Of a DNA stretch of 64,000 nucleotides, positions 297 through 17,305 are shown in pieces. The number at the start of each line of letters is the position of its first letter. The stretch's first letter is position 1. Source of the stretch: Mycobacterium gallinarum (lineage in GTDB: Bacteria > Actinomycetota > Actinomycetes > Mycobacteriales > Mycobacteriaceae). The stretch covers positions 2,604,001-2,668,000 of the forward strand of contig NZ_AP022601.1 in the NCBI RefSeq assembly GCF_010726765.1, given 5' to 3'. The translations under genes were made by a program, and so were the position numbers. The notes beneath the pieces were generated by a model. It had not been told where the DNA came from and did not search any database. It saw only the letters and a program-made list of their open reading frames with translations.

Positions 297-1001
297 GTGG
301 AGTTGAAGAACGCTGTCGTGACCGGAGGTGGCTCCGGCATCGGGCAGGCAGTGGCGCACCGGTTGCGCGCGGACGGCATGAATGTGGCGATTCTGGACCT
401 CAATCCATCGGACGCTGACAACTCGTACGTCGCCGACGTCACCGACCGCGCTCAGGTCGACGCCGCCCTCGATGCCGTGCGCGCTCAGCTCGGTCCGGTG
501 ACGGTTCTGGTGAACGCCGCGGGGCTGGAGAAGTTCAAGCGATTCACCGACATCTCGTTCGAGGAGTGGCAGCGGGTCGTCGACGTGAACCTCAACGGCG
601 TCTTCCACTGCATCCAGGCGGTGTTGCCCGACATGATCGAGGCCGGCTGGGGGCGCATCGTCAACATCTCGTCGTCGAGCACGCATTCCGGCCAGCCGTT
701 CATGTCCCCGTATGTAGCGGCCAAGTCGGCGGTCAACGGACTCACCAAGTCACTGGCCCTGGAGTACGGCCCCAGCGGAATCACCGTGAACGCGGTGCCG
801 CCCGGCTTCATCGACACCCCGATGCTGCGTAAGTCCGAGGAGCGCGGCTACCTCACCGTCCAGCAGAGCATCGACTCGACGCCGGTGCGGCGCATCGGGA
901 AGCCCGAGGACATCGCGGCCGCCTGCGCGTTTTTGGCCTCAGAGGAGGCCGGCTACATCACGGGTCAGATCCTGGGCGTCAACGGCGGCCGGAACACGTA
1001 A
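297..1001 (+). CDS. SDR family NAD(P)-dependent oxidoreductase
   Basis: A 234-residue classical short-chain dehydrogenase/reductase. Seen: the TGGGSGIG nucleotide-binding loop at residues 9-16, an NAAG motif near 73, a serine-rich catalytic strand near 125-129 and the YxxxK pair Y139/K143; the length is normal for the family. The C-terminal ITGQILGVNGG is typical of Rossmann SDRs. Start chosen at GTG 297, the first start in a frame that keeps the beta-alpha-beta loop at the N-terminus. The next SDR follows after 32 bases, so the two are probably co-transcribed, with the ferredoxin and P450 behind. Probable role: oxidation of a hydroxyl made by the downstream P450 (inference). Substrate unknown. 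Confidence 0.9.
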   Translation: MELKNAVVTGGGSGIGQAVAHRLRADGMNVAILDLNPSDADNSYVADVTDRAQVDAALDAVRAQLGPVTVLVNAAGLEKFKRFTDISFEEWQRVVDVNLNGVFHCIQAVLPDMIEAGWGRIVNISSSSTHSGQPFMSPYVAAKSAVNGLTKSLALEYGPSGITVNAVPPGFIDTPMLRKSEERGYLTVQQSIDSTPVRRIGKPEDIAAACAFLASEEAGYITGQILGVNGGRNT

Positions 1002-1033: not shown

Positions 1034-1894
1034 GTGGGACGAGTACAGGGAAAGGTCGCCTTCGTCACGGGCGCGGGTCGCGGACAGGGTCGCAGTCACG
1101 CCATCCGGTTAGCCGAAGAGGGCGCCGACATCATCGCCGTCGACCGATGTGAAGATTTCGCGACAGTTGGCTACCCGATGGCCACACCGGAGGACCTGGA
1201 GGAGACGGCGCAGTTCGTCGAGAAGACGGGACAGCGTGTCGTCACCGCGCAGGTCGATGTGAGTGACGCCGCGCAGCTGAAGCACGCGCTCGAGGCAGGT
1301 GTTTCTGAGCTCGGCGGGCTCGACATCGTCGTCACGTCGGCCGGAATCGCGGGCATGAAGGGCTCGGGTGACATGGCGGCCTGGGTAGACGTCATGAATA
1401 CCAACCTGATTGGCACCATGAACGCCATCCACGTGGCACTCCCACACCTCCGCGAAGGTGCGTCGATCATCGCCACCGGGTCCACCGCGGCCCTGATGGA
1501 CGTCAGTAAGAACGACAACCCGGGCACCGATCCCGGTGGCGCCGCGTATCTCCATTCGAAGCGCCTGTTGTCGCAGTATGTCCACAACCTCGCTGCCGAA
1601 CTCGCGCCACGAGGCATCCGCGCGAACGTGATTCACCCGACGAACTGCAACACTCCGATGTTGCAGAGCGAGCCGATGTACAAGTCGTTCCGTCCCGACC
1701 TGGAGCACCCGACGAAGGCGGACGCCGAACCCGTGTTCTACGTCCAGCAGGCGATGAAGGTGCCTTGGATCGAACCCGAGGACATCAGCAACATGGTGCT
1801 TTTCCTGGCATCGGACGAGGCCCGGTACATCACCGGCACCCAGCAGCGCGTCGATGCCGGCGGATACCTGAAGTGGTACGACTACCACATTTAA
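1034..1894 (+). CDS. mycofactocin-coupled SDR family oxidoreductase
   Basis: 286 residues with the signature that separates mycofactocin-dependent SDRs from ordinary ones: GAGRGQGRSHAIRLAEEGAD at 13-32 followed by an extended segment with CEDFATVGYPMATPEDLEET. Catalytic S150, Y172 and K176 are visible. In this family the nicotinamide cofactor is held by the protein and electrons are passed to the peptide-derived redox cofactor mycofactocin (established for the family). GTG start with GAAAGGA about ten bases upstream. A paralogue lies at 54819. The mycofactocin biosynthesis genes are not in the window. Together with the ferredoxin and P450 just downstream it suggests alcohol oxidation after P450 hydroxylation. 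Confidence 0.92.
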   Translation: MGRVQGKVAFVTGAGRGQGRSHAIRLAEEGADIIAVDRCEDFATVGYPMATPEDLEETAQFVEKTGQRVVTAQVDVSDAAQLKHALEAGVSELGGLDIVVTSAGIAGMKGSGDMAAWVDVMNTNLIGTMNAIHVALPHLREGASIIATGSTAALMDVSKNDNPGTDPGGAAYLHSKRLLSQYVHNLAAELAPRGIRANVIHPTNCNTPMLQSEPMYKSFRPDLEHPTKADAEPVFYVQQAMKVPWIEPEDISNMVLFLASDEARYITGTQQRVDAGGYLKWYDYHI

Positions 1895-2146: not shown

Positions 2147-3514
2147 TTGACTGTCGACGACATCCGCGCCGCCGACAACGAGCGGAAGAAGAATCGGTAT
2201 CACTTCGACCGGCACACCCCGGAGTATCGGGTGCAGTTCGAGAAGATCACCGAAGAGATGCAGTCCAAATGCCCGATGGCCTGGACTGATGTCTACGACG
2301 GACATTGGGTTGCCGCCGACAGCAAGCACGTGTTCGAGTTGGCTCGCTGTCCGGTGGTGTCCAACGATCACGACATCAACGGAGAGCGAAAGGGCTATCA
2401 GGGAATAACGATCCCAAAGGCGCAACGAGCCACGGTCGTGCGGGGCGGCATCCTGGAGATGGACGAACCCGAGCACAGCATCTACCGCGGCACGTTGAAC
2501 CCCTACCTCTCCCCTGCCGCGGTCCGGCGATGGCAACCGTTCGTCGACGAGATCACCCGGGCGGCCCTCGACGAAAAGATCGAGTCGGGCCGCATCGACT
2601 TCGTCGACGACCTGGCCAACATCGTGCCCGCGGTGCTGACGCTGGCGATGATGGGCATCGAACTGAAGAAGTGGCCGGTCTACAGCGAGCCCGCGCACCT
2701 CTCGGTATCCACCCCGGAGCATTCGCCCGACGCCGCCCGCGTCGCCGAGATGAACCGCCAGATGGGTATCGACATGATCACCACCATGATGGAGGTCCGC
2801 GAGCACCCGCGGCCCGGGTTGATCAACGCACTGCTGCAACTGCGTATCGACGGTGAACCGGCCCCTGACCTGGAGATCCTCGGCAATCTCGGGTTGATCA
2901 TCGGCGGCGGCTTCGACACCACCACCGCGCTCACCGCGCACTCGCTGGAGTGGCTGTCGGAGAACCCGGACCAGCGCGAGCTGCTCAGCCGCGAACGCGA
3001 GACCTTGCTGAACCCGGCCACCGAGGAGTTCCTACGCTTTTACACGCCGGCACCGGGCGACGGACGCACCTTCGCCGACGATGTCGAGGTCGAGGGCACG
3101 AAATTCAAAGAAGGCGAGCGACTGTGGATTTCGTGGGCCATGGCCAACCGCGACCCGTCGGTCTTCGAAAAGCCCAACGAGCTCATCATGGACCGGAAGG
3201 GCAACCGTCACTTCAGCTTCGGGATCGGTGTTCACCGTTGCGTGGGCTCCAACGTCGCCCGCACGGTCTTCAAGTCGATGCTGACCGCGGTGCTGGACCG
3301 CATGCCCGACTACGTCTGTGACCCCGAGGGCACCGAACACTACGAGACCATCGGTGTCATCCAGGGCATGAAGCATCTGCCGGCGACGTTCACGCCGGGC
3401 AAGCCACTGGGTCCGGGACTGGACGAGACGCTGGAGAAACTTCAGCGGATCTGCGATGAACAGCATCCGGCCCGACCCATCACCGAACACAAGGACGCTG
3501 TCGTCATCGACTGA
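2147..3514 (+). CDS. cytochrome P450
   Basis: 455 residues, somewhat long for a bacterial P450. Seen: I-helix GGGFDTTTA near residues 252-260 (acid-threonine pair, here D-T), and the heme loop FGIGVHRCVG with the thiolate ligand C365. TTG start with GGCAGGGAGA just upstream. No signal or membrane segment, so a soluble monooxygenase fed by the adjacent ferredoxin. The run SDR, mycofactocin SDR, ferredoxin, P450 suggests one oxidation module. CYP family number cannot be assigned by eye and the substrate is unknown; it is clearly different from the two 400-residue P450s at 23.7-26.3 kb. Confidence 0.93.
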   Translation: MTVDDIRAADNERKKNRYHFDRHTPEYRVQFEKITEEMQSKCPMAWTDVYDGHWVAADSKHVFELARCPVVSNDHDINGERKGYQGITIPKAQRATVVRGGILEMDEPEHSIYRGTLNPYLSPAAVRRWQPFVDEITRAALDEKIESGRIDFVDDLANIVPAVLTLAMMGIELKKWPVYSEPAHLSVSTPEHSPDAARVAEMNRQMGIDMITTMMEVREHPRPGLINALLQLRIDGEPAPDLEILGNLGLIIGGGFDTTTALTAHSLEWLSENPDQRELLSRERETLLNPATEEFLRFYTPAPGDGRTFADDVEVEGTKFKEGERLWISWAMANRDPSVFEKPNELIMDRKGNRHFSFGIGVHRCVGSNVARTVFKSMLTAVLDRMPDYVCDPEGTEHYETIGVIQGMKHLPATFTPGKPLGPGLDETLEKLQRICDEQHPARPITEHKDAVVID

Positions 3515-4024: not shown

Positions 4025-4073
4025 GATTTCGGTGCGCGGACGACCGCTCAGCGACCGTATGCGCACCGAAATC
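4025..4073. terminator. bidirectional hairpin terminator between convergent genes
   Basis: A perfect 13-base inverted repeat: GATTTCGGTGCGC at 4025-4037 and its complement at 4061-4073, loop of 23 bases. It lies exactly between the convergent ends of the secreted-protein gene and the nine-gene minus-strand run, overlapping the stop codon of the latter. No U-tract, as is common in mycobacteria. Confidence 0.75.
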
Positions 4074-5280
4074 ACAAGACGTAACGTTGCCGAATTCCGT
4101 TGAACCGCGCCCACATCTGCGCGACGCGCTCCTCGGGAGTGACGGTCACGGTCGCGGGTGGCAGCGCATCGGCGAGCTGCGCGCGCTTGACCACCCGGGT
4201 GTACAACTCGGCCGGCTCACCCTCCAGCATGTGCCGGTAGGTGATGTTGCCCCGCTCGAAGCCCTGCGTGTCGATCCAGTTGTGATAGCCCGGATCATCG
4301 TGCGCCAGCACCAGCCGCACCTTGCCGTCGCTGTCCACCGCGGTGCGGCTCGGCGTGTAGCTCACCGGCCGGTAGAGGTAGTCCATGCTGTTGAAGAAGA
4401 CACCCATATTGGTGAACATCCACAGGCCCTCATGCGCGTCGAACTCGATGATGAGCGCCTCGTCGGCGGCCAGCACCCAATGCATATTGGTCGCGGCGCG
4501 ACCGCGTTTCGCATCGGCGTCGGTCGCGCCGGCGGCCGGAAAACGGTTGGGATTCGCGGCGTCCACCCCGCCGTAGCGGAACGGGAACTCCGGCCAATCG
4601 TCCATCAGGCCGGTGACGAAGTCACCCGCCCAGCCCATCGCGTCGATCATCGACACGGGAGTCGGCGCAGGCTTGGGAGTATCCATGCCGACACGTTCTA
4701 TTTGTAGGCGAGCAGGCCGCTCGTCCCAGGAGTCGAAACCCTGGCGGATGAACAACTTGCGCGACCCCGCCGTGGTGGGTACCCAGTTCGTCCCGCGTTG
4801 CTGGCCGCCGACCCAGACCTCGAAGCTGCCGTCGTCGGCGGACGTGAGCTCGTGGCCGAACAGATTGGCCTCCGGGACGTCGCCGAATGGTTCGTGGAGT
4901 ACGCCAGGACCGTCGGATCGCGGTCCCTGCACGGTGATGTTGAGAAATCGTGCGGTGCCGCGGTTTCCGACGACGCGATACGTCGATTCGCCGTCGATCC
5001 ACGCCTGCTGATAGAGGAAGTCGGCGCAGTCGCCGCCGAGCTTGCGCGTGGGATTGCAGAACGTATGAATCGCCGGATAGCGGGTGTCCCTGGTCTCCAG
5101 CCCCAGATCGAAGGCCTGACCGAGGTTCTGCGTCAAGAACCTGAAGCCGTCGGCCCGCTGCAGACCCGAGGTGGGGTTCAGATCCTTGAAGACCCGTTCG
5201 CCGGCCACCTTGAGACGGTCGCAGAAGTCGATCCACGCGGCGTGCAGCGCAGCGTCATCAGAACCGTCTCCAAGCGCCAC
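4072..5280 (-). CDS. DUF1214 domain-containing protein
   Basis: 402 residues. The C-terminal half has features I associate with DUF1214: WMFTNMGVFFNSMDY, then a region ending DDPGYHNWIDTQGFERG followed by a YRHML segment. The N-terminal part has FCDRLKVAGERV and a Trp/Asp-rich stretch. No signal peptide or obvious membrane helix. GTG start with AGGGGA upstream. It is the last gene of the minus-strand run that begins at 13458, nine bases after the isomerase. Biochemical function of DUF1214 is not settled, so only a catabolic association is inferred. Confidence 0.8.
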   Translation of the reverse strand: MALGDGSDDAALHAAWIDFCDRLKVAGERVFKDLNPTSGLQRADGFRFLTQNLGQAFDLGLETRDTRYPAIHTFCNPTRKLGGDCADFLYQQAWIDGESTYRVVGNRGTARFLNITVQGPRSDGPGVLHEPFGDVPEANLFGHELTSADDGSFEVWVGGQQRGTNWVPTTAGSRKLFIRQGFDSWDERPARLQIERVGMDTPKPAPTPVSMIDAMGWAGDFVTGLMDDWPEFPFRYGGVDAANPNRFPAAGATDADAKRGRAATNMHWVLAADEALIIEFDAHEGLWMFTNMGVFFNSMDYLYRPVSYTPSRTAVDSDGKVRLVLAHDDPGYHNWIDTQGFERGNITYRHMLEGEPAELYTRVVKRAQLADALPPATVTVTPEERVAQMWARFNGIRQRYVL

Positions 5281-5289
5281 AGTTATCCC

Positions 5290-6060
5290 CTACACACCAA
5301 GTCGTTTCAGCATCGTCGATACCATCTCGCAGCCGCGACGCACCGCCTCGAAACGGCCCTCGGCCTCGATACGAGGGCCGATCAACTCCAGATCGAAGCC
5401 ATGGCTGTAGCCGCCGGCGAGTACCTGCCGGAGGAACGGCTCGATCGGGATCGTCCCGTCCCCCGGGACGGCGCGGGCCGGGAGTGCCCGGTCACCGAGG
5501 ACGTAGTCGCTGAGTTGAATTTGCAGCGTCCGCGGCAGCGCGCGTTCGACGAGACCGCCCAGGTCGGCCTCGGCCCAGCAATGAAACAAGTCGATACAGA
5601 CACCGACGCCCGCCATCTCGGCCAGTGTGATCGTGTCGCGCAGGGTGTGCGCGATGTGGATGTCCGCATAGAGAGCGGATGCGTTTTCGATGGCAAGTGC
5701 GACGCCGGCGTGCTCTGCTTCACGTAGGCATGGAGCGACCGCCGCGCAGAAGCGTTCGGCGGCCTGGCCCCAGTCCAATTCACCTCGACCGCCCGTCAGC
5801 ATGTACACCACGCGAGTTCCGAGAGCGGCGGCGTTCTCGATGACGCGGGACAGCCGGTCGCCGGACTCGAACAGGTGGTACACGGTGTCGACCGAGTAGC
5901 CGTGTTGCTCGATGAGCGGCACCAGCCCGGGTTCACCCAGCTGGGAATCGATCAGGCTCAGCCGGGTGAGTCCAAGTGCGGACCACATCGAATGTTGCTC
6001 GGCGAACGGCGTGCCGAGAAACGTCACACTGTGCACCGATAGCCGACTATGCACCCTCAC
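5290..6060 (-). CDS. sugar phosphate isomerase/epimerase-like TIM-barrel protein
   Basis: 256 residues of the xylose-isomerase-like / AP-endonuclease-2 fold. Metal-binding strand ends are recognisable: LAIENASALYADIH (Glu), VGVCIDLFHCW (Asp and His) and RAVPGDGTIP late in the barrel. GTG start at 6060 overlaps the stop of the sulfotransferase by four bases, so translation is probably coupled. In catabolic operons this fold serves as isomerase, epimerase or dehydratase; which one cannot be told here. Confidence 0.82.
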   Translation of the reverse strand: MRVHSRLSVHSVTFLGTPFAEQHSMWSALGLTRLSLIDSQLGEPGLVPLIEQHGYSVDTVYHLFESGDRLSRVIENAAALGTRVVYMLTGGRGELDWGQAAERFCAAVAPCLREAEHAGVALAIENASALYADIHIAHTLRDTITLAEMAGVGVCIDLFHCWAEADLGGLVERALPRTLQIQLSDYVLGDRALPARAVPGDGTIPIEPFLRQVLAGGYSHGFDLELIGPRIEAEGRFEAVRRGCEMVSTMLKRLGV

Positions 6061-7247
6061 CTCCGCTGTTCGATTGCGACACCGAATCGATCACGGAACG
6101 GCTGGAATTCTTCGTGCAACGCCTCGAGATCCTCACCGATGTCGGTGAGGAGTTCGGTCGAATAGCGGAACTTCCCGTGCCGGTCGCCCGGGTTGTTCTC
6201 CAGATAGGCGCGCATGGCCGTTCGGGCATCGGCGCTCAGGGTCCGGCCGCGGAATTCGTAGTAGCGGGCGACGGTGCCGACGGGGTCGGCAAGGAAATCC
6301 GTGTAGCGCACGTGCAGGATCCGGGGATCGTCGGTGAGCGGGTTGGTCATGGTGTTGGCGATGCTTGCCCGCGTCAACTCGAGATGCGTCTTCGCCGCCT
6401 GCTGTAGGTCGATCGGGCCGACGATGCCTTCGAGGATGTCGGCCATCATCATCGTGCGCGACGCGGCGACCTGCACGGGGTCTCGGTGCAGCCACAGCAG
6501 GGTCGCGTCCGGATAGCAGTTGAAGAACTCCCGCAGACGAAAGCCGTGGAATCCCTTCAGAACCCACTGCTTGCGCGGACGTCCGTACTGGAACTGTTGC
6601 AGCATCGCCTTGTGGATGCGGTACTGTGCGGCGTCATCGGTGGGCAGACCCCCGACCACCGTCTGCATCGGAACCCGCCACCACGCGGTCGGTGTCATCA
6701 CGCGGAAGTCGAAGGCCCAGGTGCGTTCGTCCTCCGGCAGCCCCGCGCCGAGCATGTCGTTGTAGGGATGGCTGTGCAGCCATTTCGGCATCTGTGCGTT
6801 GATCTCGCGCCAGTCTGCGTCGGCGCGCTCCCGGCGAGGGTCGTCATCGCCGGCCATTCCGGGTGGCGGGGACGGATACATCACCTCCCAGAACCGGAGC
6901 GCCCGCGCATCGGGATCCACCGACATCAGGGCGTGCATCAGGGTGGTGCCCGAGCGCGGTTCGCCGGTCACGAACATCGGCCGCTCGATCACTTCGTCGG
7001 CGACCGGATACCGGTGTCGGTCCTCGAAGAACTCCAGTCGCGAGGTGAGCAGCCAGTGGCATACGTCCTCAGCCCGCGCCCTACCGTCGGCGTCCAAGCC
7101 GATGCCGTTGAGAAGGTCGACGGCCGTGGCGAATCGCTGCGGCAGCGTGGCGTCGCCGTAGTCCGTCAGACCGGTGCCGGCCTGCGCCCGGTTCAGCATC
7201 TTCTGCGCGTTCAGGGCACCGTTCACCGCGTCGAGCGCGCCACTCAC
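6057..7247 (-). CDS. PAPS-dependent sulfotransferase family protein
   Basis: 396 residues. Seen: the 5'-phosphosulfate-binding loop VTGEPRSGTTLMHAL near residues 93-107 and the later WLHRDPVQVAASR segment that matches the 3'-phosphate site of sulfotransferases. Family reaction: transfer of sulfate from PAPS to a hydroxyl or amine. Start set at GTG 7247, which overlaps the stop of the upstream LLM gene (GTGA); a longer in-frame extension to 7772 is only antisense to that gene. A sulfotransferase inside a beta-oxidation run is unusual: it could tag or detoxify a hydroxylated intermediate, or act on a related lipid. Confidence 0.88.
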   Translation of the reverse strand: MSGALDAVNGALNAQKMLNRAQAGTGLTDYGDATLPQRFATAVDLLNGIGLDADGRARAEDVCHWLLTSRLEFFEDRHRYPVADEVIERPMFVTGEPRSGTTLMHALMSVDPDARALRFWEVMYPSPPPGMAGDDDPRRERADADWREINAQMPKWLHSHPYNDMLGAGLPEDERTWAFDFRVMTPTAWWRVPMQTVVGGLPTDDAAQYRIHKAMLQQFQYGRPRKQWVLKGFHGFRLREFFNCYPDATLLWLHRDPVQVAASRTMMMADILEGIVGPIDLQQAAKTHLELTRASIANTMTNPLTDDPRILHVRYTDFLADPVGTVARYYEFRGRTLSADARTAMRAYLENNPGDRHGKFRYSTELLTDIGEDLEALHEEFQPFRDRFGVAIEQRR

Positions 7248-8371
7248 TGGACGTCTCCGCACAGGCGCATCAGTTCGTCCTCGACGTCGCGCACGTTCTC
7301 CGCGGACGCGGCGGAGTACGAGAGTCCGGCCATACCGCCATAATCCAGGATCTTGGGCACGCGAAGGCCCGCGTCGACATAGTTTTTGATCTCCTGCGCC
7401 ACTTGCTTCGGCGTGCCGTGTGGGACAACGGCGAGAATCGATTCGGGCTCGACCCGGTCGAGAAACTCGACCACGCGCTCGCGGGTCAGTGTCGCCGGGT
7501 CGATGTCCTGGTAGCCACGCCAGTGCTCCCCCATCGGATGTTCGAAGCCGAGGCTGCGCAGGAGTTCGGCGGATACCTGCAGAAGGAACGCCTTGACGAG
7601 CGGCGCGTCGAGAATCTCGGCGAGGGCGGCGGCGTCGCGACCGATCAGGCAGACCTGGATGTAGCACGGCGTGATGGCCATCGGATCGCGGCCGGCCCGC
7701 TCCGCCGAAGCCCTTACGGTGGCGAGCTTTTGGGCGTAGTCGTCGGGATCCCAGGCGCCGGTGGGCCACCACCCGTCGGCGTAGCGGCCGACGATCTCCA
7801 GGGTTCGCGGCCCGCTTGCTCCGATCCAGATCGGCGGGGTGGCACCCTGATACGGCTCGGTGTCGAGCCGGGCATGGCGTAGGTGGTAGAACTGCCCGTC
7901 GAAATCGACCGGGCCGTCGCTGTCCCAGAGCAGCCGAATGACGTGCAGCGCCTCTTCGAATCGGCTGACCGGTTTGGTGAAGTCGAATCCGTAGGGCACG
8001 GTGTTCTCGGTCTCGCCGCTGCCCAGGCCGAGCACGAAACGGCCCTCGGCGAGATGGTCGATGGTGAGCGCGCTCTGTGCGAGCAGCGCCGGATGACGGC
8101 GCACGGTATCGATCACGCTGGTGACCAGCGGTACGTTCTCGGTCAGCACTGCCGCCGCCGCGGCCACCGCCATGGCGTCGAGGTGGCGGTGCGGCGACGG
8201 AGAAACCGTTGCCAGGTCGGTGAATTCAGGAGTCCAGATCGAGTCGGGCCAGAAGCTGACCATGTGATCGGGCAGCCAGATCGAGTGGTAACGGCCGCTG
8301 TCGAGCTGCGTCAGTACCGAGAGGTCCAGCGGAAGTGTGGTCCGCAGGTACGCAGCGGGCTGGACCTTCAC
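7244..8371 (-). CDS. LLM class F420-dependent oxidoreductase
   Basis: 375 residues of the luciferase-like monooxygenase fold. Family marks: WLPDHMVSFWPDS near the N-terminus, then DHLAEGRFVLGLGSGE and FEEALHVIRLLW, and PIWIGASGPRTLEI further on, as in mycobacterial F420-dependent enzymes. Likely a hydride transfer to or from coenzyme F420 rather than a true luciferase. Overlaps its neighbours by four bases on both sides (SDR upstream, sulfotransferase downstream). A second LLM enzyme of different length lies at 44170. Confidence 0.9.
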   Translation of the reverse strand: MKVQPAAYLRTTLPLDLSVLTQLDSGRYHSIWLPDHMVSFWPDSIWTPEFTDLATVSPSPHRHLDAMAVAAAAAVLTENVPLVTSVIDTVRRHPALLAQSALTIDHLAEGRFVLGLGSGETENTVPYGFDFTKPVSRFEEALHVIRLLWDSDGPVDFDGQFYHLRHARLDTEPYQGATPPIWIGASGPRTLEIVGRYADGWWPTGAWDPDDYAQKLATVRASAERAGRDPMAITPCYIQVCLIGRDAAALAEILDAPLVKAFLLQVSAELLRSLGFEHPMGEHWRGYQDIDPATLTRERVVEFLDRVEPESILAVVPHGTPKQVAQEIKNYVDAGLRVPKILDYGGMAGLSYSAASAENVRDVEDELMRLCGDVQ

Positions 8372-9144
8372 AGCCAGCCGACCTCACGCAGGAACGGTTG
8401 CGTGTGAGCGATACGGCCGGTCAGCGTTTTCGGATCGCCCGTGCACAACACGAACGCCGTCTGCGTGATGAGCTCGATGTCTTCGGTGTCGGTCTTGGCG
8501 AGGTCGAGTGCACCCGCACCTTCGGTGGCGACGGGGTTGGACGGTGCTGCGGCGTTCACGGCGATGCCGTCGTCGTACAGCTCGGCCGCAAGGCTTTTCG
8601 TCAACCGGTTGAGCGCGGCCTTCGCTGTGCCGTAGATGCCGAAACCCGCCTCGCGATCGAACGCGGAGAACGGCGGTCCGTCAGGCAGATCGCCGCCGAC
8701 GGAGGTCACGTTCAGGACCCACCCCCGCTTACGCTCGCGCATTGCGGGGATCGCCATTTGGGTGAGGTGCAGCGGGGCCAGCACGTGCATCTCCATCATC
8801 AGACGGACGCGACGGTCGGGGAATTCGTCTAGTGGCCGCAGGAATGTGACGGCCGCGTTGTTGACGAGAATGTCGGGTGCGCCGACCTTCTCCACGACTT
8901 CGCTGAACATCCGTTCGCGGTCTTCGGGTTTGGCGAGGTCGGCGGCGACGGTGATCGCCGATCCGCCCGATTGTTCGATTTCCGCCAGCGTCTGGCTGAG
9001 GGAACCTTGATATTTCGGGTCGGGTTCGGCGGTGCGCGCGGTGAGGGCGACGGTGACCCCCTCTGCCGCCAGACGCTTCGCGATGGCCTTGCCCAACCCG
9101 CGGCTGGTGCCGGTGACCAGGGCCACCTTGCCGTCACACGTCAT
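8368..9144 (-). CDS. SDR family oxidoreductase
   Basis: 258 residues, classical SDR: TGTSRGLGKAIA at the N-terminus, NNAAVTF, a serine in NVTSVGG and the catalytic YGTAK. The stretch QTAFVLCTGDPKTLTGRIAHT is typical of mycobacterial SDRs that lie among beta-oxidation genes. ATG start, nine bases after the acyl-CoA dehydrogenase. Probably a 3-hydroxyacyl-CoA or alcohol dehydrogenase of the same pathway (inference). Confidence 0.9.
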   Translation of the reverse strand: MTCDGKVALVTGTSRGLGKAIAKRLAAEGVTVALTARTAEPDPKYQGSLSQTLAEIEQSGGSAITVAADLAKPEDRERMFSEVVEKVGAPDILVNNAAVTFLRPLDEFPDRRVRLMMEMHVLAPLHLTQMAIPAMRERKRGWVLNVTSVGGDLPDGPPFSAFDREAGFGIYGTAKAALNRLTKSLAAELYDDGIAVNAAAPSNPVATEGAGALDLAKTDTEDIELITQTAFVLCTGDPKTLTGRIAHTQPFLREVGWL

Positions 9145-9153
9145 CGTGCCCTC

Positions 9154-10449
9154 CTAGGTACGCGCAATGCCTGCGAGCTTGTCGGCGAACTTCGCCTCAG
9201 CGGCTTCCCGCAGCCGCAGCAGGTGCTCGGACGGGAATGCGTCCGGTGCAGGCTTGACGTCCTTGAGTAACAGCCGCGCCAGTGTCACCTTGTGCACCTC
9301 GGTCGGCCCGTCGGCCAGCCCGAGCACGAACGATTCCGTCATGTACTGCACGAACGGCATCTCATGCGAGGTGCCCAGCGATCCGTGCAGTTGAAGGGCG
9401 CGCGCCGAGACGTCATGCAGCACCTTCTGCATCATCGCCTTCACCGCCGAGATATCGCCGCGTACCGCCTTGTAGTCGTTGTATTTGTCGATCTTCCAGG
9501 CGGTTTGGAGGGTCAGCAGGCGGTAGGCCTCGATTTCCATCCAGGAGTCGGCGATCATCTCCTGCACCATCTGCTTGTTGGCGAGCAGCTCTCCCTGCGT
9601 GTAACGCGAGACGGCCCGCTCGGTCAGCATGTCGAAGATCCGCCGCACTAGTCCGACTGTGCGCATGGCGTGGTGGATGCGACCGCCGCCCAGCCTGGTC
9701 TGCGCCACCACGAACGCACCACCGCGAGGACCGAGCATGTGGTCGGCGGGTACCCGGACGTTCTCGTACCGCACGTAGCCTTCGCGTCCGCCGCCTGGCG
9801 GCTGGTAGCCGAGGCCGACGTCGCGCAGCACGTTGATGCCCGGCGTGTCTCCGGGCACGACGAACATCGAATAGCGTTGGTAGGGCGGCGCGTCGGGATC
9901 GGTCATCGCCATCACGATGATGAAGGACGCCATCGACGCGAACGAGGAGTACCACTTCTCACCATTGATCACCCAATGATCGCCGTCTTGCACTGCCATG
10001 GTGGTGAATACCTTGGGATCGGCGCCGCCCTGCGGTTCGGTCATCGAGAAGCACGACACGATCCGGTTGTCCAGCAGCGGCTCGAGATACCGTTCCTTGA
10101 GTTCCGGTGTGCCGTAGTGCGCGAGGATCTCACTGTTGCCGGAGTCGGGTGCCTGGGATCCGAACACTATCGGTGCGCATTCCGATCGCCCGAGAATCTC
10201 GTTGAGCAGCGCGAGTTTCACCTGTCCGTAGCCGGGTCCGCCGAGATGCGGGCCGAGGTGGGTGGCCCACAGCCCACGCTCTTTGACGATGTCCTGCAGT
10301 GGCGGGACCAGCGCCTGGCGCACGGGGTCATTGAGGTCGTGCGACTCCTTGACCACGTAGTCGATGGGCTCGCATTCCTCGCGGACGAACTGCTCTACCC
10401 AGGCCAGCTGCTCCGTCCATTCGGGATCGGTGGAGAAGTCCCACGCCAC
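9154..10449 (-). CDS. acyl-CoA dehydrogenase, ACAD10/11-like
   Basis: 431 residues with all three acyl-CoA dehydrogenase regions: N-terminal helical part with GLWATHLGPHLGGPGYG, middle domain CFSMTEPQGGADP and WVINGEKWYSS, and C-terminal helices with ALQLHGSLG and GLADGPTEVHK. The ADGPTEVH element and overall length are of the ACAD10/11 branch rather than the short-chain branch. GTG start. Very similar along its length to the gene at 48061, which unlike this one has a kinase-like neighbour. Role: alpha,beta-dehydrogenation of an acyl-CoA. Confidence 0.93.
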   Translation of the reverse strand: MAWDFSTDPEWTEQLAWVEQFVREECEPIDYVVKESHDLNDPVRQALVPPLQDIVKERGLWATHLGPHLGGPGYGQVKLALLNEILGRSECAPIVFGSQAPDSGNSEILAHYGTPELKERYLEPLLDNRIVSCFSMTEPQGGADPKVFTTMAVQDGDHWVINGEKWYSSFASMASFIIVMAMTDPDAPPYQRYSMFVVPGDTPGINVLRDVGLGYQPPGGGREGYVRYENVRVPADHMLGPRGGAFVVAQTRLGGGRIHHAMRTVGLVRRIFDMLTERAVSRYTQGELLANKQMVQEMIADSWMEIEAYRLLTLQTAWKIDKYNDYKAVRGDISAVKAMMQKVLHDVSARALQLHGSLGTSHEMPFVQYMTESFVLGLADGPTEVHKVTLARLLLKDVKPAPDAFPSEHLLRLREAAEAKFADKLAGIART

Positions 10450-10477
10450 TATCGAGTACCGCCTTTCCGTACCGCGA

Positions 10478-11275
10478 TCACTTCGGTCGCCGCCGCGCCT
10501 CGGCTTCGTCCGTGGCGTGGCTGAGCACCTGGTTGCGATTCTCGAGCTCCAGTGCCGCGCCGAAACACGTCGCGTCGGTGTTCACCTGCAGCGCGCGTTT
10601 CGTCAGCTGCGTGCCGAAGGGCGGGAGTTCCGCAACGGCGCGGGCGATTTCGAGTGCCTGCGGCATCAGTTCGTCCGGCTCGAGCACCTGGCTGACCAGG
10701 CCGCGACGGTCGGCTTCGGCCGCCGTCACCGTGCGGCCGGTCATCATCCAGTCGGCGGCGACGCTGGTGCCGACGATCCGGGGCAGGTGGTAGCTCATGC
10801 CCATTTCGGCACCGGACAACCCGAGCAGGATCGCACCGTTGCCGAACGTCGCGGATGTCGAGCAGATCCGGATGTCAGACGACAGGCACAGCGCGAAGCC
10901 CGCGCCCACGCACGGGCCGTTCACCGCGGCGATGACGGGCTGGGGCAGATTCCGGATCGCCTGTGGCAGAGCGGCCATCGCTTCCTGGAACCGCAACCGT
11001 TCGATCGCGGGATCCGAGGCCTCCAGTGCCTTCGGCGAGAAGTTGCGGACGTCGATCCCCGAACAGAATCCGCGCCCCTGTCCGGTGATCACGACGGCAT
11101 GGACCGATACGTCGGAGCCAATGGTGGCGAGCGTCGCGATCAACTCGTCGCGCATCGCCTCGTTGATCGCGTTGAGCTGTTTGGGCCGATTGAGTTGCAG
11201 CAGAACAACGCCGACGTGGGGCCGGTCGATGAGCAGCGTCGCCGGGTGGGTTCGGGTGGGAGCGGACTCGGTCAC
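10478..11275 (-). CDS. enoyl-CoA hydratase/isomerase family protein
   Basis: 265 residues of the crotonase fold. Seen: VVITGQGRGFCSGIDVR (first oxyanion-hole strand), then VIAAVNGPCVGAGFALCLSSDIRI (second), GLSGAEMGMSYHLPR and a C-terminal ALQVNTDATCFGAALELE. GTG start three bases beyond the stop of the upstream dehydrogenase. Expected to hydrate the enoyl-CoA made by the dehydrogenases beside it. Retro-aldol or isomerase activity is also possible in this superfamily. Confidence 0.92.
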   Translation of the reverse strand: MTESAPTRTHPATLLIDRPHVGVVLLQLNRPKQLNAINEAMRDELIATLATIGSDVSVHAVVITGQGRGFCSGIDVRNFSPKALEASDPAIERLRFQEAMAALPQAIRNLPQPVIAAVNGPCVGAGFALCLSSDIRICSTSATFGNGAILLGLSGAEMGMSYHLPRIVGTSVAADWMMTGRTVTAAEADRRGLVSQVLEPDELMPQALEIARAVAELPPFGTQLTKRALQVNTDATCFGAALELENRNQVLSHATDEAEARRRPK

Positions 11276-11278
11276 TTA

Positions 11279-12466
11279 TCAGCGCCGCGGCAGACCGAGC
11301 ACCTGCTGCGCGATGATGTTGCGCTGGATCTCGGACGTGCCGCCTGCGATGGTGCCGCCGAAGCTGCGCGCGTAGCGCTCGAACCAGCTGACGAAGTAGT
11401 GGTCCAGGTTCATGTGTTCGTAAGGACCCGTGGTCGACGGGTGGGTGAGGCCCTCGGCTCCCGCGGCGGTCAACGCGTTCTCGAACGCCTGACGTTCGGC
11501 TTCAGAACCGAAGAGTTTCAGCACCGACACCGACGCGGTGTCCATCTCGCCGCGCGCGGCGCGGGCCAGCGCCGCCGAACCCATGGCACGCAGCGCTTGA
11601 TAGTCCATGATCGTCGTCGCGTACTGGTCGCGCTCCAGCTCGGTGCGCGGCCGGAAATCGGCGATCATGTTGTCGATCCGGTCTGCGAAGCCGAGCCACA
11701 TCATGGTGCGTTCGTGGCCGAGAGAGCCGTTGGCGACCGACCAGCCGCCGTTCAACGGGCCGACGAGGTTCTCGGCCGGCACCTTAACGTCGGTGAAGAA
11801 CACCTCGTTGAAGTCGAGATTGTCCTCACCGCACATGTCGGCGAAGGGCCGGCACACCACACCGGGAGTGTCGGTCGGGATGATCAGCACGCTGATGCCC
11901 TTGTGTTTGGGGGCATCGGGATCGGTGCGCACGAACGTCAACAGGAAGTCGGCGTCGTGTGCGCCGGACGTCCACACCTTCTGACCGTTGACCACGAAGT
12001 AGGGCTCGTCGGCATCAGAGAAAAACTCAGCTCGGGTGCGCAGCGACGCCAGATCGGACCCCGCGCTCGGCTCGCTCATGCCGAGGGATGCGGTCATCTC
12101 GCCGCGCAACACGGGCACCGCCCAACGGTGCTTCTGCTCGTCGGAACCGAAGGAGATCAACGACGCCGCAACGATGTTCACGCCCTGCGGGTTGAAGCTG
12201 TGGTAAATGCGCCGTCGGCACAGTTCGTCGAGGTGCACGAACTGCTGCAACACCGTTGCATTGCGGCCACCGAACTCTGGTGGCTGGGAGGGCAGCAACC
12301 AGCCGTTGTCGAACAACAGCCGCTGCCAGTCACGCGCCCATTGGGGCATGTGCGACACCGACTTCGGTCGCTCCTGGGTCTCGCTCTCCGAGGGCAGGTG
12401 CTCGTCGAGGAACGCCGCGAACTCGGCGCGGAACTCCTCGACATCGGAATCGAAGGTCAATTGCAT
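11279..12466 (-). CDS. acyl-CoA dehydrogenase, large subunit of a two-gene pair
   Basis: 395 residues. Seen: SLGMSEPSAGSDLASLRTR, VVNGQKVWTSGAHDAD, and a C-terminal GTSEIQRNIIAQQVLGLPRR. Start ATG 12466 shares one base with the stop of the shorter dehydrogenase upstream. A long FadE plus a shorter FadE encoded back to back is the arrangement of the alpha2beta2 dehydrogenases of mycobacterial steroid side-chain degradation (FadE28-FadE29, FadE26-FadE27), so a heterotetramer is likely. A close single paralogue without a partner is at 41258. Confidence 0.92.
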   Translation of the reverse strand: MQLTFDSDVEEFRAEFAAFLDEHLPSESETQERPKSVSHMPQWARDWQRLLFDNGWLLPSQPPEFGGRNATVLQQFVHLDELCRRRIYHSFNPQGVNIVAASLISFGSDEQKHRWAVPVLRGEMTASLGMSEPSAGSDLASLRTRAEFFSDADEPYFVVNGQKVWTSGAHDADFLLTFVRTDPDAPKHKGISVLIIPTDTPGVVCRPFADMCGEDNLDFNEVFFTDVKVPAENLVGPLNGGWSVANGSLGHERTMMWLGFADRIDNMIADFRPRTELERDQYATTIMDYQALRAMGSAALARAARGEMDTASVSVLKLFGSEAERQAFENALTAAGAEGLTHPSTTGPYEHMNLDHYFVSWFERYARSFGGTIAGGTSEIQRNIIAQQVLGLPRR

Positions 12467-13458
12467 TAGGAAATCCTGTATTCCGCGGCGATCACCGCAC
12501 GATGCTCCGCCGCCCCGCCCAGCAGTAGTTCACCGGCCTTGGCTCGCTTCAGCGCGAACTGCAGGTCGTTCTCCCACGTGAATCCCATGGCGCCGAACAG
12601 CTGCAGGCCGTGGCGAAACACCAATGCCTGAGCCTCCCCCGCCGATGCCTTGGCCATCGCCGCCGCAAGCCGGCGTCGAGGGTCGTCGGCTGCGATGGTC
12701 AAGGCGGCGAAGTAGGACAGCGCGCGGGCACGCTCGGTCGCGACGTGCATGTCGACAGCCTTGTGCTGCACGGCCTGAAAGGTTCCGATCGCCACACCGA
12801 ACTGCTGACGCTGCTTCACGTGCTCGAGCACCAGATCGAGGATGCGTTGGCAGGCGCCGACCGTCGTGATGGCCATGCCGGTGAGGGCCACGTGCCGGGC
12901 CTTTTCGGTGTCGACGGGGACGCGGTCGGTGTCGGGCACGTGCGTACCGGCGAAGGTGACCTCCGCTACGTGCAGCACCGGATCGAAGACGTCGCTGCGC
13001 CGGGTGGCGGCCTCGCCGGCGTCGACGACGAAGACCCCGGCCCCGGTGACCACTGCGAGCTTCTCGGCGCGGTCACCGTCGAGTACGTGATGCGCCGTTC
13101 CATTCAGGACCCAGCCCTGGGCGTCGCGATGAGCGGTCACCCCGCTGTACACGGCCGTGCCGGCCAGCTGCGGATCGAACCGGTCACCGGCGAGGGGCGC
13201 GAACTGGGTCAATGTCGCCAGGAACGGGGTCGGATCGGTGGCGCGGCCCAATTCCTCGGCCACGATCGCGAGTTCGACGGCGTTCTCCGGATCGTTGAGC
13301 TCGGTCCAGCCCGCGTCGACGTAGGTCTTCCACAGCGGCATGGGGTCTTCGCCGTTCTCGGCGATTCCGCGAACGAGGGACGCCGGGCAAGCCTTGGTGA
13401 CCGCGTCCCGCACGGTCTCCTGCCACAGCCGCTGATCGGCGTCGAATTCCAGTAACAC
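12466..13458 (-). CDS. acyl-CoA dehydrogenase, short subunit of a two-gene pair
   Basis: 330 residues, clearly shorter than the usual 380-400. The N-terminal helices, a reduced middle domain (AVYSGVTAHRDAQGWVLNG) and the C-terminal bundle (QQFGVAIGTFQAVQHKAVDM, LQLFGAMGFTWENDLQFALK) are all present, while the usual MTEP-type flavin-contact loop is missing. This is the pattern of the degenerate subunit in alpha2beta2 FadE complexes. GTG start with GGGAGG upstream. It is the first gene of the nine-gene minus-strand run, directly behind the palindrome at 13501. Confidence 0.9.
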   Translation of the reverse strand: MLLEFDADQRLWQETVRDAVTKACPASLVRGIAENGEDPMPLWKTYVDAGWTELNDPENAVELAIVAEELGRATDPTPFLATLTQFAPLAGDRFDPQLAGTAVYSGVTAHRDAQGWVLNGTAHHVLDGDRAEKLAVVTGAGVFVVDAGEAATRRSDVFDPVLHVAEVTFAGTHVPDTDRVPVDTEKARHVALTGMAITTVGACQRILDLVLEHVKQRQQFGVAIGTFQAVQHKAVDMHVATERARALSYFAALTIAADDPRRRLAAAMAKASAGEAQALVFRHGLQLFGAMGFTWENDLQFALKRAKAGELLLGGAAEHRAVIAAEYRIS

Positions 13459-13500: not shown

Positions 13501-13519
13501 ACGAGAATAACATTCTCGT
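13501..13519. promoter_or_regulatory. perfect palindromic operator ACGAGAAT-AAC-ATTCTCGT
   Basis: Perfect 8-base inverted repeat with a 3-base spacer in the 286-base region between divergent units: the nine-gene run (start 13458) and the amidohydrolase run (start 13745). It is 43 bases from the first and 226 from the second start, so it most directly fits the minus-strand promoter. Related copies lie at 241, 28151 and 63531. Nothing else is recognisable in 13459-13744. Confidence 0.75.
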
Positions 13520-13744
13520 TAGATGCTGTAACCGTTCTCTGGATTCGACTACCTCGTTTCACGGCCCGGGCGCCAAGCGACTGACCAGCGCACACCCTGA
13601 CCTGCGAAGAAGTAAGCGTTCTGCTGGAGAACAAGATTCTTGCCTTTGAAGAACAAGCCTTTACTATGGCTTTATGTCCGGTGCCGGCGCATGTCACAGC
13701 CCCTCGTGCGCTCCGGCCACCCGGATGGACATCGGAGGCCTTGA

Positions 13745-14839
13745 GTGAACACACTTCCCGAGGAGAGCCAGCTCGGTAAGACACCCGTGATCGATGCCAG
13801 CGTGCACATCTTCAGCAAGTCGAACAAGGACCTGCGCGGCTTCATGCGCGAGCCGTTCAAGAGCCGCGGATTCCCGGACTACGAAATGGACTGGTACGGC
13901 GCCCCCGGCGGCGAGTACGCCCCCGACACCGAAGGTGAACGCCGCTATCCCGGATCGGACCCCGAGTTCGTCGGCCGGCAGCTCTTCGAAGAACGCGGCG
14001 TCGACATCGCGATCCTGCACCCGATGACGCGGGGGATCATGCCCGACCGCCATCTCGGCACCGCGATCGCGGCGGCGCACAACGAGCTCATGGTGTCGCG
14101 CTGGCTCGAGGACAATTCCTACGCCGACCGGTTCCGCGGCACCATCCGGGTCAATCCCGACGACGTCACCGGAGCGCTGCGCGACATCGCGAAATACGCC
14201 GACCACCCACGCGTCGTACAGATCGGCGTCCCGCTGCAGTCGCGAGAGCTCTACGGCAAACCTCAGTACTGGCCGTTGTGGGAAGCGGCCGCGGCGGCGA
14301 ATCTTCCAGTCGCGGTGCACATCGAGGTCGGAGCGGGCGTGCAGTACGCGCCGACACCGAATGGAGTTCCGAGGACCTACGAGCACTACGTCAGCTTCAT
14401 GGCGCTGAACTTTCTGTATCACCTCATGAACCTGATCGTCGAAGGGGTGTTCGAGAAGATGCCCACGCTGAAGTTCGTTTGGGCCGACGGGGCCGGTGAC
14501 CTGCTGACGCCGTTCATGTGGCGGATGGACTGCTTCGGTCGCCCCCACCTCGAGCAGACTCCGTGGGCGCCGAAGATGCCCAGCGATTACCTGCCCGGCC
14601 ACACCTACTTCATCCAGGGCGCGATGGACGGGCCCGGCGACGTCGAATTCGCCGGTGAATGGCTCGACTTCACCGGCAAGGACGACATGGTGATGTACGG
14701 GTCGAGCTACCCGCATTGGCAGCTCAACGAGCTGAGGGTGCCCAGTTCGTACTCGGCGGAACAACGCGACAAGCTCTGCTGGCGAAATGCCGCGGAGCTC
14801 TACGGCATAGACGTCGGGGCCGGCGTCAGCGCACAGTAA
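13745..14839 (+). CDS. amidohydrolase family protein (Amidohydro_2 type)
   Basis: 364 residues of the metal-dependent TIM-barrel hydrolase/decarboxylase group. Landmarks: VIDASVHIFS near the N-terminus, EERGVDIAILHP, VAVHIEVGAG in mid-barrel, and MVMYGSSYPHWQLNE near the C-terminus, where the late acid/His loop sits. The early DxHxH motif reads D-A-S-V-H, so one metal histidine appears replaced. GTG start. It is followed after 27 bases by a second member of the family. Family members decarboxylate or hydrolyse ring-derived acids; substrate unknown here. Confidence 0.88.
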   Translation: MNTLPEESQLGKTPVIDASVHIFSKSNKDLRGFMREPFKSRGFPDYEMDWYGAPGGEYAPDTEGERRYPGSDPEFVGRQLFEERGVDIAILHPMTRGIMPDRHLGTAIAAAHNELMVSRWLEDNSYADRFRGTIRVNPDDVTGALRDIAKYADHPRVVQIGVPLQSRELYGKPQYWPLWEAAAAANLPVAVHIEVGAGVQYAPTPNGVPRTYEHYVSFMALNFLYHLMNLIVEGVFEKMPTLKFVWADGAGDLLTPFMWRMDCFGRPHLEQTPWAPKMPSDYLPGHTYFIQGAMDGPGDVEFAGEWLDFTGKDDMVMYGSSYPHWQLNELRVPSSYSAEQRDKLCWRNAAELYGIDVGAGVSAQ

Positions 14840-14866
14840 GAGAAGACTTCGTTAAGGGAGGCCACT

Positions 14867-16009
14867 ATGACGGTCACAGTGAACGAGCGAAAGCCCGCGG
14901 CCGAGCGCATCGCGGTTCGCTGCGTCGACTCCGACGTGCATCCGACGCCGAGGGCCGGCGAGCTGACGCAGTACATCCCCGAGCCGTGGCGCAGCAAGTA
15001 CTTCCTGACGCGCCGGGTCGGGGACCAGATCTACTACGACGCGCCTGATTACGCACACGCGTATGCGATGCGGGTGGACACGTTTCCGTCGGACGGCAAC
15101 TTCGCGGGCAGCGACCCCGATCTGGCGTTCAAGCAGTTGATCATGGAGGCCGGCGCCGACATCGCCATCCTCGAGCCGGCCGCCTACCCGGCGCGCTTCC
15201 CCGAGGTGAACCACGCGATGAGCTGTGCCCTGAACGACTGGCAGGACAACCACTGGCTGGACAGTCACAACAACTGGCACGAGCGCTGGAGGGGTTCGAT
15301 CTGCGCGGCGATCGAAGCGCCGGAGGACTCCGCTCGCGAGATCGAGCGCTGGGCCGGCCACCCCTACATGGGACAGATCCTGATCAAGGCCGAACCCCGT
15401 CCGGCGTGGGGTGACCCCAAGTACAACCCGATCTGGGAAGCCGCCACCAAACACGACATCACCGTGAGCTGCCACCTGTCGCGCAGCCACCACGAGGAAC
15501 TGCCGATCCCGCCGGTCGGGTTCCCCAGCTACAACCACGATTTCATGGTCACCTACTCGCTGCTGGCCGCGAACCAGGTGATGAGCATGGTCTTCGACGG
15601 CCTCTTCGACCGGTTCCCGACACTGCGAATCGTATTGGTGGAGCACGCATTCACGTGGATCCTGCCGCTGATGTGGCGGATGGACGCGATCTACGAAGCC
15701 CGCAAGTCGTGGCTGGACATCAAGCGCAAGCCGTCGGAGTACGTCAAGGACCACATCAAGTTCACCACCCAGCCGCTGGACTACCCCGAGGACAAGACCG
15801 AGTTGACCCGGGCGTTCGAGTGGATGGAGTGCGAGAAGATCCTGCTGTTCAGCAGCGACTATCCGCACTGGACGTTCGACGACCCCCGCTGGCTGGTCAA
15901 GCACCTGCCCGAGCACGCCCGCGAGGCGGTGATGTTCCGCAACGGCATCGCGACATACCACCTGCCAGAGACGGTTCCGGCCCTCGAGGGCCAGGTGCGG
16001 GTGTTCTGA
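14867..16009 (+). CDS. amidohydrolase family protein (Amidohydro_2 type)
   Basis: 380 residues, paralogous in outline to the gene before it. CVDSDVHPTPRAGEL gives the early metal loop, TVSCHLSRSHHEE the mid-barrel histidines, RIVLVEHAFTWILPLMWRMD a later strand, and LFSSDYPHWTFDDP the C-terminal Asp loop. ATG start with AGGGAGG upstream. The Rieske gene begins one base after its stop, so they are surely co-transcribed. Probably acts on a CoA-derived or ring-cleavage acid in the same pathway (inference). Confidence 0.88.
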   Translation: MTVTVNERKPAAERIAVRCVDSDVHPTPRAGELTQYIPEPWRSKYFLTRRVGDQIYYDAPDYAHAYAMRVDTFPSDGNFAGSDPDLAFKQLIMEAGADIAILEPAAYPARFPEVNHAMSCALNDWQDNHWLDSHNNWHERWRGSICAAIEAPEDSAREIERWAGHPYMGQILIKAEPRPAWGDPKYNPIWEAATKHDITVSCHLSRSHHEELPIPPVGFPSYNHDFMVTYSLLAANQVMSMVFDGLFDRFPTLRIVLVEHAFTWILPLMWRMDAIYEARKSWLDIKRKPSEYVKDHIKFTTQPLDYPEDKTELTRAFEWMECEKILLFSSDYPHWTFDDPRWLVKHLPEHAREAVMFRNGIATYHLPETVPALEGQVRVF

Positions 16010-16010
16010 G

Positions 16011-16400
16011 TTGGACGAGCAGAAGACGCCCCGGCTCGCGCAAGGGCGCGAACACGTCGTCGCCACCGTCGACGAGATCCCGCCGGGCACACACAAACTG
16101 GTGCCCATCGGCCGGCACGGCGTCGGCGTCTACAACGTCAACGGCACGTTCTACGCCATCGCGAACTACTGCCCGCACGAGGGCGGTCCGCTGTGCTCGG
16201 GCCGCCCGCGCGGCCGCACGATCGTCGACGACGACGTTCCTGGCGACGCGGTGATGGTGCGCGACCTCGAATTCATCTACTGCCCGTGGCACCAGTGGGG
16301 TTTTGAACTGGCGACAGGCACGACCGCGGTCAAACCCGAGTGGAGTATCCGGACCTATCCCGTCCGGATCGTCGGCAACGATGTGATGGTGCAGGCATGA
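16011..16400 (+). CDS. Rieske [2Fe-2S] ferredoxin-like protein
   Basis: 129 residues, one Rieske domain: C54-x-H56 in CPHEGG and C91-x2-H94 in CPWHQW. No catalytic oxygenase domain, so it is either an electron carrier or a subunit. Between the two cluster boxes is an Asp-rich loop (RTIVDDDVPGD) longer than in ring-hydroxylating ferredoxins. TTG start one base after the amidohydrolase stop; its own stop overlaps the hydrolase start. An association with amidohydrolases rather than an oxygenase is unexpected. Confidence 0.9.
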   Translation: MDEQKTPRLAQGREHVVATVDEIPPGTHKLVPIGRHGVGVYNVNGTFYAIANYCPHEGGPLCSGRPRGRTIVDDDVPGDAVMVRDLEFIYCPWHQWGFELATGTTAVKPEWSIRTYPVRIVGNDVMVQA

Positions 16401-17305
16401 CAACCACTGAGTCCTCCGGCCTGCGGCTCAAGCCCGGCGAAGAGATCTTCGAATACAAGGGCGGCCGCGTCGTCTACGAAATCCTCGGCGAAGAAGGCGA
16501 ATTCATCGCCCTGACGCCGGGAGGCCGATTCAGCAAGGACATCCCGGGGCTGCGGCCGTTGGCGGAGGCGCTGGCCGAGGGCGGCTACCGGGTCCTGCTG
16601 TGGGACAGGCCGAACTGTGGCAAGTCGGACGTGCAGTTCTACGGCAAGAGCGAATCACACATGCGCGCCGAGACTCTGCACGCGTTGATCACCGGACTCG
16701 ACGTCGGTCCGTGCATCATCGCGGGTGGGTCCGGCGGGGCACGCGACTCCATGCTGACCACGATGCTCTACCCAGAGATCGTGCGAAAACTGGTGGTGTG
16801 GAACATCGTCGGCGGGGTCTACGGCTCGTTCGTGCTCGGCGGACACTATGTCGTGCCCAGCATCCTGGCCGCCAAGGGCATGGGCGTCGAGGGCCTGCTC
16901 CACGTCGCCGAGTGGAAGGAGCGCATCGCCGAGAACCCGGACAACGAGGCGCGGTTCCGGGCACTCGACGTCGACGAGTTCCTCAAGCTGATGCGGCGCT
17001 GGCTCAACGCTTTCGTGCCCAAGCCCGGCCAGACCATCCCCGGCGTCGAGGACGAGATGTTCGACAACATCACCATTCCGACGTTGATCATCCGTGGCGG
17101 CGAGAACGATTGGGACCATCCGAAGCGCACCTCGCTCGAGGTGAGCTGCCTGATCAAGGGTTCCACATTGATCGACCCGCCATGGCCGGAAGACGCTTGG
17201 GAACGTGCCGGTGAGAAGTTCGCCGCCAGCGGCGGGAAGAACTTCTGCCTTTTCGACACCTGGGTGCAGGCCGCGCCCGCAATCCTCCAGTTCCTGGACG
17301 ACTGA
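16397..17305 (+). CDS. alpha/beta hydrolase fold protein
   Basis: 302 residues. Strand-order landmarks: VLLWDRPNCGKSD and the nucleophile elbow GGSGGA with S112, then LIIRGGENDWDHP carrying the likely acid. The usual late catalytic His loop (PGxGH) is not obvious: the region reads STLIDPPWPEDAW. Start ATG 16397 overlaps the Rieske stop by four bases. Could be a C-C bond or ester hydrolase, or a member with altered chemistry. End is five bases from the convergent small gene. Confidence 0.82.
   Translation: MTTTESSGLRLKPGEEIFEYKGGRVVYEILGEEGEFIALTPGGRFSKDIPGLRPLAEALAEGGYRVLLWDRPNCGKSDVQFYGKSESHMRAETLHALITGLDVGPCIIAGGSGGARDSMLTTMLYPEIVRKLVVWNIVGGVYGSFVLGGHYVVPSILAAKGMGVEGLLHVAEWKERIAENPDNEARFRALDVDEFLKLMRRWLNAFVPKPGQTIPGVEDEMFDNITIPTLIIRGGENDWDHPKRTSLEVSCLIKGSTLIDPPWPEDAWERAGEKFAASGGKNFCLFDTWVQAAPAILQFLDD

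Follow-up and report, generated by a model that had tools for sequence, protein, structure and literature searches.

Among the TetR-family systems described in mycobacteria, KstR, KstR2 and the regulator of motif X offer the closest comparison for the locus analyzed here. KstR is an autoregulated TetR repressor lying between divergent genes, with 83 genes predicted in M. smegmatis and a box given in print as TAGAAC(N2)GTTCTA (PMC1995591); KstR2, which controls cholesterol catabolism, has the operator AnCAAGnnCTTGnT, three sites and 15 genes, most of its boxes being located 22-82 bases before starts (PMC3068626). Motif X is an autoregulatory palindrome found before 14 operons with P450s, short-chain dehydrogenases (SDRs) and dehydrogenases, and is attributed to the predicted TetR G155_05115, the Rv0767c orthologue of Mycobacterium sp. 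VKM Ac-1817D (PMC6593523). Moreover, Balhana et al. 2015 (PMC4482099) provide 30 mycobacterial TetR motifs as logos. The last two sources display their motifs as images, so a logo of the motif reported below may already be among them. In the open-access literature, among the matches listed, we found no description of this motif or of its regulator, the motif-X paper being a possible relative.

We analyzed a stretch of 64,000 nucleotides of Mycobacterium gallinarum, a soil-type mycobacterium (contig NZ_AP022601.1, positions 2,604,001-2,668,000), referred to as the window; its features are collected in Table 1. The pattern GAGARYNNNRTTCTC has four operator places (7 strand matches) in the window, compared with a mean of 0.09 and a largest value of 2 in 100 shuffles. 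A preliminary description of this DNA had proposed a palindrome shared by four sites, and all of them are present; three fit the strict form GAGAAYNNNRTTCTC (GAGAAY-N3-RTTCTC), whereas the copy at 243 carries one mismatch, a deviation which is itself conserved (see below). The same description placed the sites near gene starts, as the distances in Table 1 bear out, and named the adjoining genes correctly, including two ferredoxins that we found as open reading frames. The copy at 13627, a fifth and weaker one, was absent from it. Each of the two ferredoxin-like ORFs adjoins a P450 gene.

Table 1. Operators and adjoining genes. Positions are those of the window unless marked as chromosomal (chr) or given within another locus; ACAD, acyl-CoA dehydrogenase.
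Feature	Position	Strand	Remarks
Divergent gene left of the 243 site	mostly outside window		aldehyde-dehydrogenase-like, by eye
Operator GAGAGTACGGTTCTC	243..257		weak class, one mismatch; 39 bases before SDR start, 195 before divergent gene
SDR	297..1001	+	Pfam adh_short_C2
Mycofactocin-coupled SDR	1034..1894	+	NCBIfam TIGR03971, 339.1 bits (cut-off 300)
Ferredoxin-like ORF, 64 aa	1924..2118	+	cysteine pattern, by eye
Cytochrome P450	2147..3514	+	nearest solved relative P450cin, 3.8e-43
Nine-gene run	4072..13458	-	three ACAD-type genes (one C-terminal domain only), enoyl-CoA hydratase, SDR, luciferase-like monooxygenase, sulfotransferase-like, TIM-barrel, DUF1214-like
Operator GAGAATAACATTCTC	13503..13517		exact; perfect 8-3-8 with flanks; 45 bases before ACAD run, 227 before amidohydrolase
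Operator GAGAACAAGATTCTT	13627..13641		second, weaker copy; 103 bases before divergent amidohydrolase
Four genes	13745..17305	+	two Amidohydro_2, Rieske-domain protein, 302-aa protein without Pfam match
DUF1330 protein	26370..26654	-	domain scan
Ferredoxin-like ORF, 64 aa	26668..26862	-	by eye
Cytochrome P450 close to CYP150A6	26859..28133	-	2.4e-153
Operator GAGAATGTGATTCTC	28153..28167		exact; 20 bases before P450 start
Amidohydro_2 protein, related to DitZ of Rhodococcus rhodochrous	62012..63307	-	E 6.6e-108
Operator GAGAACCTGATTCTC	63533..63547		exact; 21 bases before CMD gene, 226 before amidohydrolase
CMD-family protein, 175 aa	63569..64000	+	extends 96 bases beyond window
Run headed by CMD gene	from 63569		Rieske oxygenase alpha subunit, 109-aa protein, Amidohydro_1, SnoaL-like, two ACAD-type genes
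One-mismatch places of the island or its edge	chr 2,579,430; 2,590,820; 2,604,243; 2,617,627		the last two are window 243 and 13627
GAGAAG-N3-CTTCTC beside TetR paralogues	locus L154, 2935-2949; locus L156, 3603-3617		

When the genome (6,301,681 bases in two contigs) was scanned, the strict form returned nine exact places, all inside 2,582,225-2,725,402, a span around the window of 143 kb or 2.3% of the 6.3-Mb genome. The rough chance of nine random points sharing a span this short is 6e-13, and the reversed pattern has no exact place genome-wide. The preliminary description had held that an equal frequency of the motif throughout the genome would speak against a single regulon; this was not seen, and since the exact motif is found in one island only, the one-regulon claim survives. 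About 91% of the 224-kb region around the sites is called coding, yet all nine exact sites are intergenic, that at 2,720,352 after correction, by reading, of the start of one mis-called MeaB-like gene. Allowing one mismatch added 39 places, four within the island or at its border (Table 1) and 35 scattered, compared with 3 for the reversed pattern; the latter is thus a weak control which underestimates the background, so that a lone one-mismatch match means little and conservation alone gives it weight. The place at 2,590,820-2,590,834 lies between small genes that look by eye like those of secreted proteins. A looser form, GAGARYNNNRYTCTC, has 13 places in the genome, 10 of them in the island and three distant (1,576,044; 1,745,376; 3,681,877), which we take as noise. 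Altogether, operator copies occupy about eleven gaps (promoter regions) between degradation genes. A chance origin of the motif set is ruled out by the shuffles, the clustering in the island and the conservation described below.

As for the regulator, it had been expected to be encoded outside the window, and a TetR-family gene carrying the motif in its own promoter is found 11 kb to the right (chromosome 2,678,878-2,679,597; 240 aa from 2,678,878, the start used by most homologues). This gene is located between two exact copies, at 2,678,807 and 2,679,615, and is divergent from an ACAD/enoyl-CoA hydratase pair; genes for an acyl-CoA thioesterase, for a P450 and for an SDR come after it. Its TetR_N domain (PF00440, at 2,679,043-2,679,180) scores 31.1 bits against a cut-off of 24, in a genome with at least 150 TetR_N matches in the profile scan. 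The predicted structure is an all-helical TetR fold of nine helices (mean pLDDT 76.6, pTM 0.66); its 50 listed fold neighbours are mostly TetR-family or TetR-type regulators (E 1e-6 to 6e-5) and include, at modest similarity, FadR solved with acyl-CoA and AibR with isovaleryl-CoA. No plasmid match to the regulator was obtained at 1e-20. We also compared the best 80 of 399 regulator loci from named genomes (Mycobacterium, Mycolicibacterium or Mycobacteriaceae), and in 80 of 80 an exact copy stands 70-71 bases before the regulator gene, with an additional copy just downstream of the gene in 54; over the 1.57 Mb of these loci there are 218 exact motif matches and 0 of the reversed pattern, in a sample which kept only regulators of at least 83% identity and thus says little about distant relatives. 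The nearest of these 80 loci is that of Mycolicibacterium tusciae, whose regulator is 100% identical.

The comparison with the known systems shows a similar architecture and another operator. Like KstR, the system would combine a TetR repressor, autoregulation and one palindrome set before many lipid-degradation operons, and the printed KstR box has a similar AGAAC half-site (PMC1995591); however, the KstR operator TnnAACnnGTTnnA has a 2-base centre, compared with 3 bases here, and the KstR box TNNAACNNGTTNNA is found in 0 of 13 sites, with one such box in 224 kb. KstR2 likewise is a TetR with a palindromic operator near starts, mostly at a spacing also seen here, with clustered targets and divergent operons (PMC3068626), but its operator differs in letters, as compared by reading alone. 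The motif-X regulator is again a predicted TetR with its own palindrome before P450, SDR and dehydrogenase operons; the text of that report names a steroid isomerase and P450s whose tags are close to that of the regulator, whereas the neighbours here are ACAD and thioesterase genes (PMC6593523). In M. gallinarum CYP51 is found at 3.77 Mb, 1.1 Mb from the island regulator, and the motif, with up to two mismatches allowed, is absent from the 3.5 kb retrieved there. CYP51 is the gene that adjoins Rv0767c. It is most improbable that the sites are boxes of KstR, KstR2 or an Rv0767c-type regulator. Instead, the motif very probably serves a single TetR-family repressor as its operator, the regulon comprising about 50 genes; by analogy, this system would work like KstR and KstR2 with another operator.

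The number of sites follows the regulator gene across genomes. In 50 of 60 genomes of the same genus the regulator was found (E <= 1e-60), and these have 1-12 sites each (median 9), compared with 0, 0, 0, 0, 0, 0, 1, 1, 1 and 2 sites in the ten without it (Mann-Whitney p 3e-7, ignoring kinship). Exceptions are genomes G026 and G056, having one and two sites despite the regulator, and the four regulator-less genomes with one or two; in G026 and G056 the regulon was possibly lost or its specificity changed. G056 keeps an exact copy before the regulator, and the only place near the regulator of G026 has two mismatches. Beyond the genus, the 14 genomes of the family in which the regulator was found (68-77% identity) have 6, 13, 9, 7, 6, 6, 6, 1, 3, 8, 2, 8, 10 and 2 sites, three of them thus merely 1-2; 0-2 sites were counted without the regulator in 19 genomes scanned of 81 (one incomplete genome excluded). 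At the fetched regulator loci of other genera an exact copy is beside the gene in 7/7, on the upstream side in 6/7. The regulator match of G140 and G109 (8 and 6 sites, respectively), also from other genera, contains one internal TGA.

A narrower role of this TetR, limited to its own promoter and its neighbours, with the other copies occupied by some other factor or a paralogue of equal specificity, has to be weighed at this point, given that the island holds at least seven other TetR genes and that some relatives (G016, G022, G081, G151) possess two close TetR paralogues. The site count, though, still tracks the regulator gene where a genome has just one close copy, and in G016 and G022 the second paralogue is preceded by another palindrome, GAGAAGNNNCTTCTC; we consider this narrower role very unlikely, and favour a single regulator that would act on all copies. 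The other TetR genes, and one IclR gene also inside the island, may share control of it. In G016 and G022 the second regulator copies (78% identical) have GAGAAG-N3-CTTCTC 74-75 bases before the start, as aligned, roughly at the place taken by GAGAAT-N3-ATTCTC in the main copies; this is its sole place in each of the two genomes, and the genome of the window has one, distant, at 4,630,912. It is possibly a natural change of operator specificity, and the comparison of this palindrome with GAGAAT-N3-ATTCTC hints that base 6 sets the specificity.

To evaluate the targets, orthologues were compared in six relatives (58 sites) out of eight with site coordinates, one of the six being represented by 8 of its 10. 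A site is located before the orthologues in 6/6 for the regulator, for the amidohydrolase/CMD unit (window 63533) or its next gene, for the amidohydrolase and CoA ligase unit (2,582,225, at 22-23 bases) and for the CoA ligase/ferredoxin unit (2,725,388). The ACAD run (window 13503) has its site 30-35 bases before the orthologue in five of the six, the CYP150A-like P450 (window 28153) in three and the MhpA-type unit (2,711,228) in two, while the MeaB/SDR site (2,720,352) has no counterpart among them (0/6); several sites of these relatives have no adjoining island orthologue.

The weaker copies display their own conservation. The one-mismatch copy at 243 recurs, altered at the identical base, in all 20 relatives fetched, 14 of which have the identical 15-mer; these relatives were drawn from the 46 of 60 genus genomes with a match to the P450 at 2147..3514 at E <= 1e-150. 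In five of the 20 the first SDR is unrecognised, so that the site stands there in front of the mycofactocin-SDR/P450 part. For the copy at 13627, a counterpart 123-124 bases away from the main site is present in 4/5 relatives examined, and a one-mismatch copy behind a CoA-ligase gene, comparable to that at 2,579,430, occurs in 4/6, the gene after it being unrecognised there. The weak sites at 243 and 13627 look real, and their conserved deviation suggests a tuned affinity.

Eleven of the 12 sites have the nearest start 20-52 bases away, the remaining one 103 bases away. A -10-like hexamer, TANNNT, lies inside the operator in gene orientation in 34 of 64 site-gene pairs within 150 bases, a count which includes orthologous, hence dependent, sites and has no control figure; with about half of the pairs involved, the regulator may cover the -10 element in some of the units. 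This geometry is that of repression, and KstR, likewise between divergent genes, is a repressor (PMC1995591); although in some cases one of the two divergent genes starts 100-230 bases downstream of the site, as might suit an activator or a dual regulator, we regard such a role as unlikely. For a repressor, we infer from the sites, their clustering, their pairing with the regulator and their conservation that a TetR-family dimer would bind the GAGAAT-N3-ATTCTC palindromes in about eleven promoter regions, among them its own, and would block RNA polymerase, resulting in repression and autoregulation. An intermediate of the pathway, which may be a CoA thioester (a guess), would release it, and the island of about 50 genes would then be induced together.

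By a rule that follows same-strand runs from the sites with gaps under 120 bases, 52 genes would be controlled, a count that omits the two small ferredoxins and one gene behind each of them, a P450 and the DUF1330 gene, respectively. Domain scans of part of the island's genes revealed P450s with ferredoxins, a mycofactocin-type SDR, a Rieske oxygenase, an MhpA-type hydroxylase, CoA ligases, ACADs, enoyl-CoA hydratases and several amidohydrolases. The MhpA-type protein scores 1098 bits against a curated cut-off of 853, and the FAD protein opposite its unit across the operator is steroid delta-1-dehydrogenase-like, below cut-offs. There, at 2,708,608-2,713,690, the MhpA-type hydroxylase and an alpha/beta hydrolase are divergent from an IclR regulator and the delta-1-dehydrogenase-like protein, with an exact operator between, an arrangement for which two-layer control is possible. 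To judge from its genes, the island suggests an oxidative catabolic programme that depends on CoA and acts on a ring-containing, CoA-activated substrate; a terpenoid-like ring compound would be our guess. That the regulon defines the members of one pathway, as proposed in the preliminary description, is plausible and goes no further, since shared control alone is no proof of it.

The amidohydrolase at 62012-63307 aligns over nearly its full length with DitZ of Rhodococcus rhodochrous (PDB 8uyr); its own model is weak (mean pLDDT 59.1) and served solely to obtain the title of the sequence match. The name suggests, and does not establish, a Dit-type diterpenoid pathway, and among the matches listed in the open-access literature we found no account of the reaction of DitZ. 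In the abietane diterpenoid dit clusters a ditA-type ring-hydroxylating dioxygenase and the ditQ P450 occur together; at the level of gene class, a Rieske alpha subunit and P450s are present here. Relatives of this amidohydrolase are present in 83 plasmid records, and the two inspected (47.8 and 48.6% identical) are both inside other CoA-type catabolic clusters. A bolder combination remains speculative and, taken as a whole, rather doubtful: that the exact and the reproducibly degraded operators (GAGAGTACGGTTCTC at 243 and the one-sided copy at 13627) are two conserved classes, by which one repressor would set the order of induction, and that the island would degrade a polycyclic terpenoid-like compound by a route undescribed in mycobacteria, with several amidohydrolases, one of them DitZ-like, which may themselves be metal-dependent oxygenases or hydrolases.

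More than 100 kb of genes whose annotation is vague, and some parts of which are found across the genus, can now be considered as one candidate co-regulated set with a regulator and a 15-base operator. In the case of KstR and KstR2 the operator led to the pathway, and the same could follow here for the substrate of the regulon.
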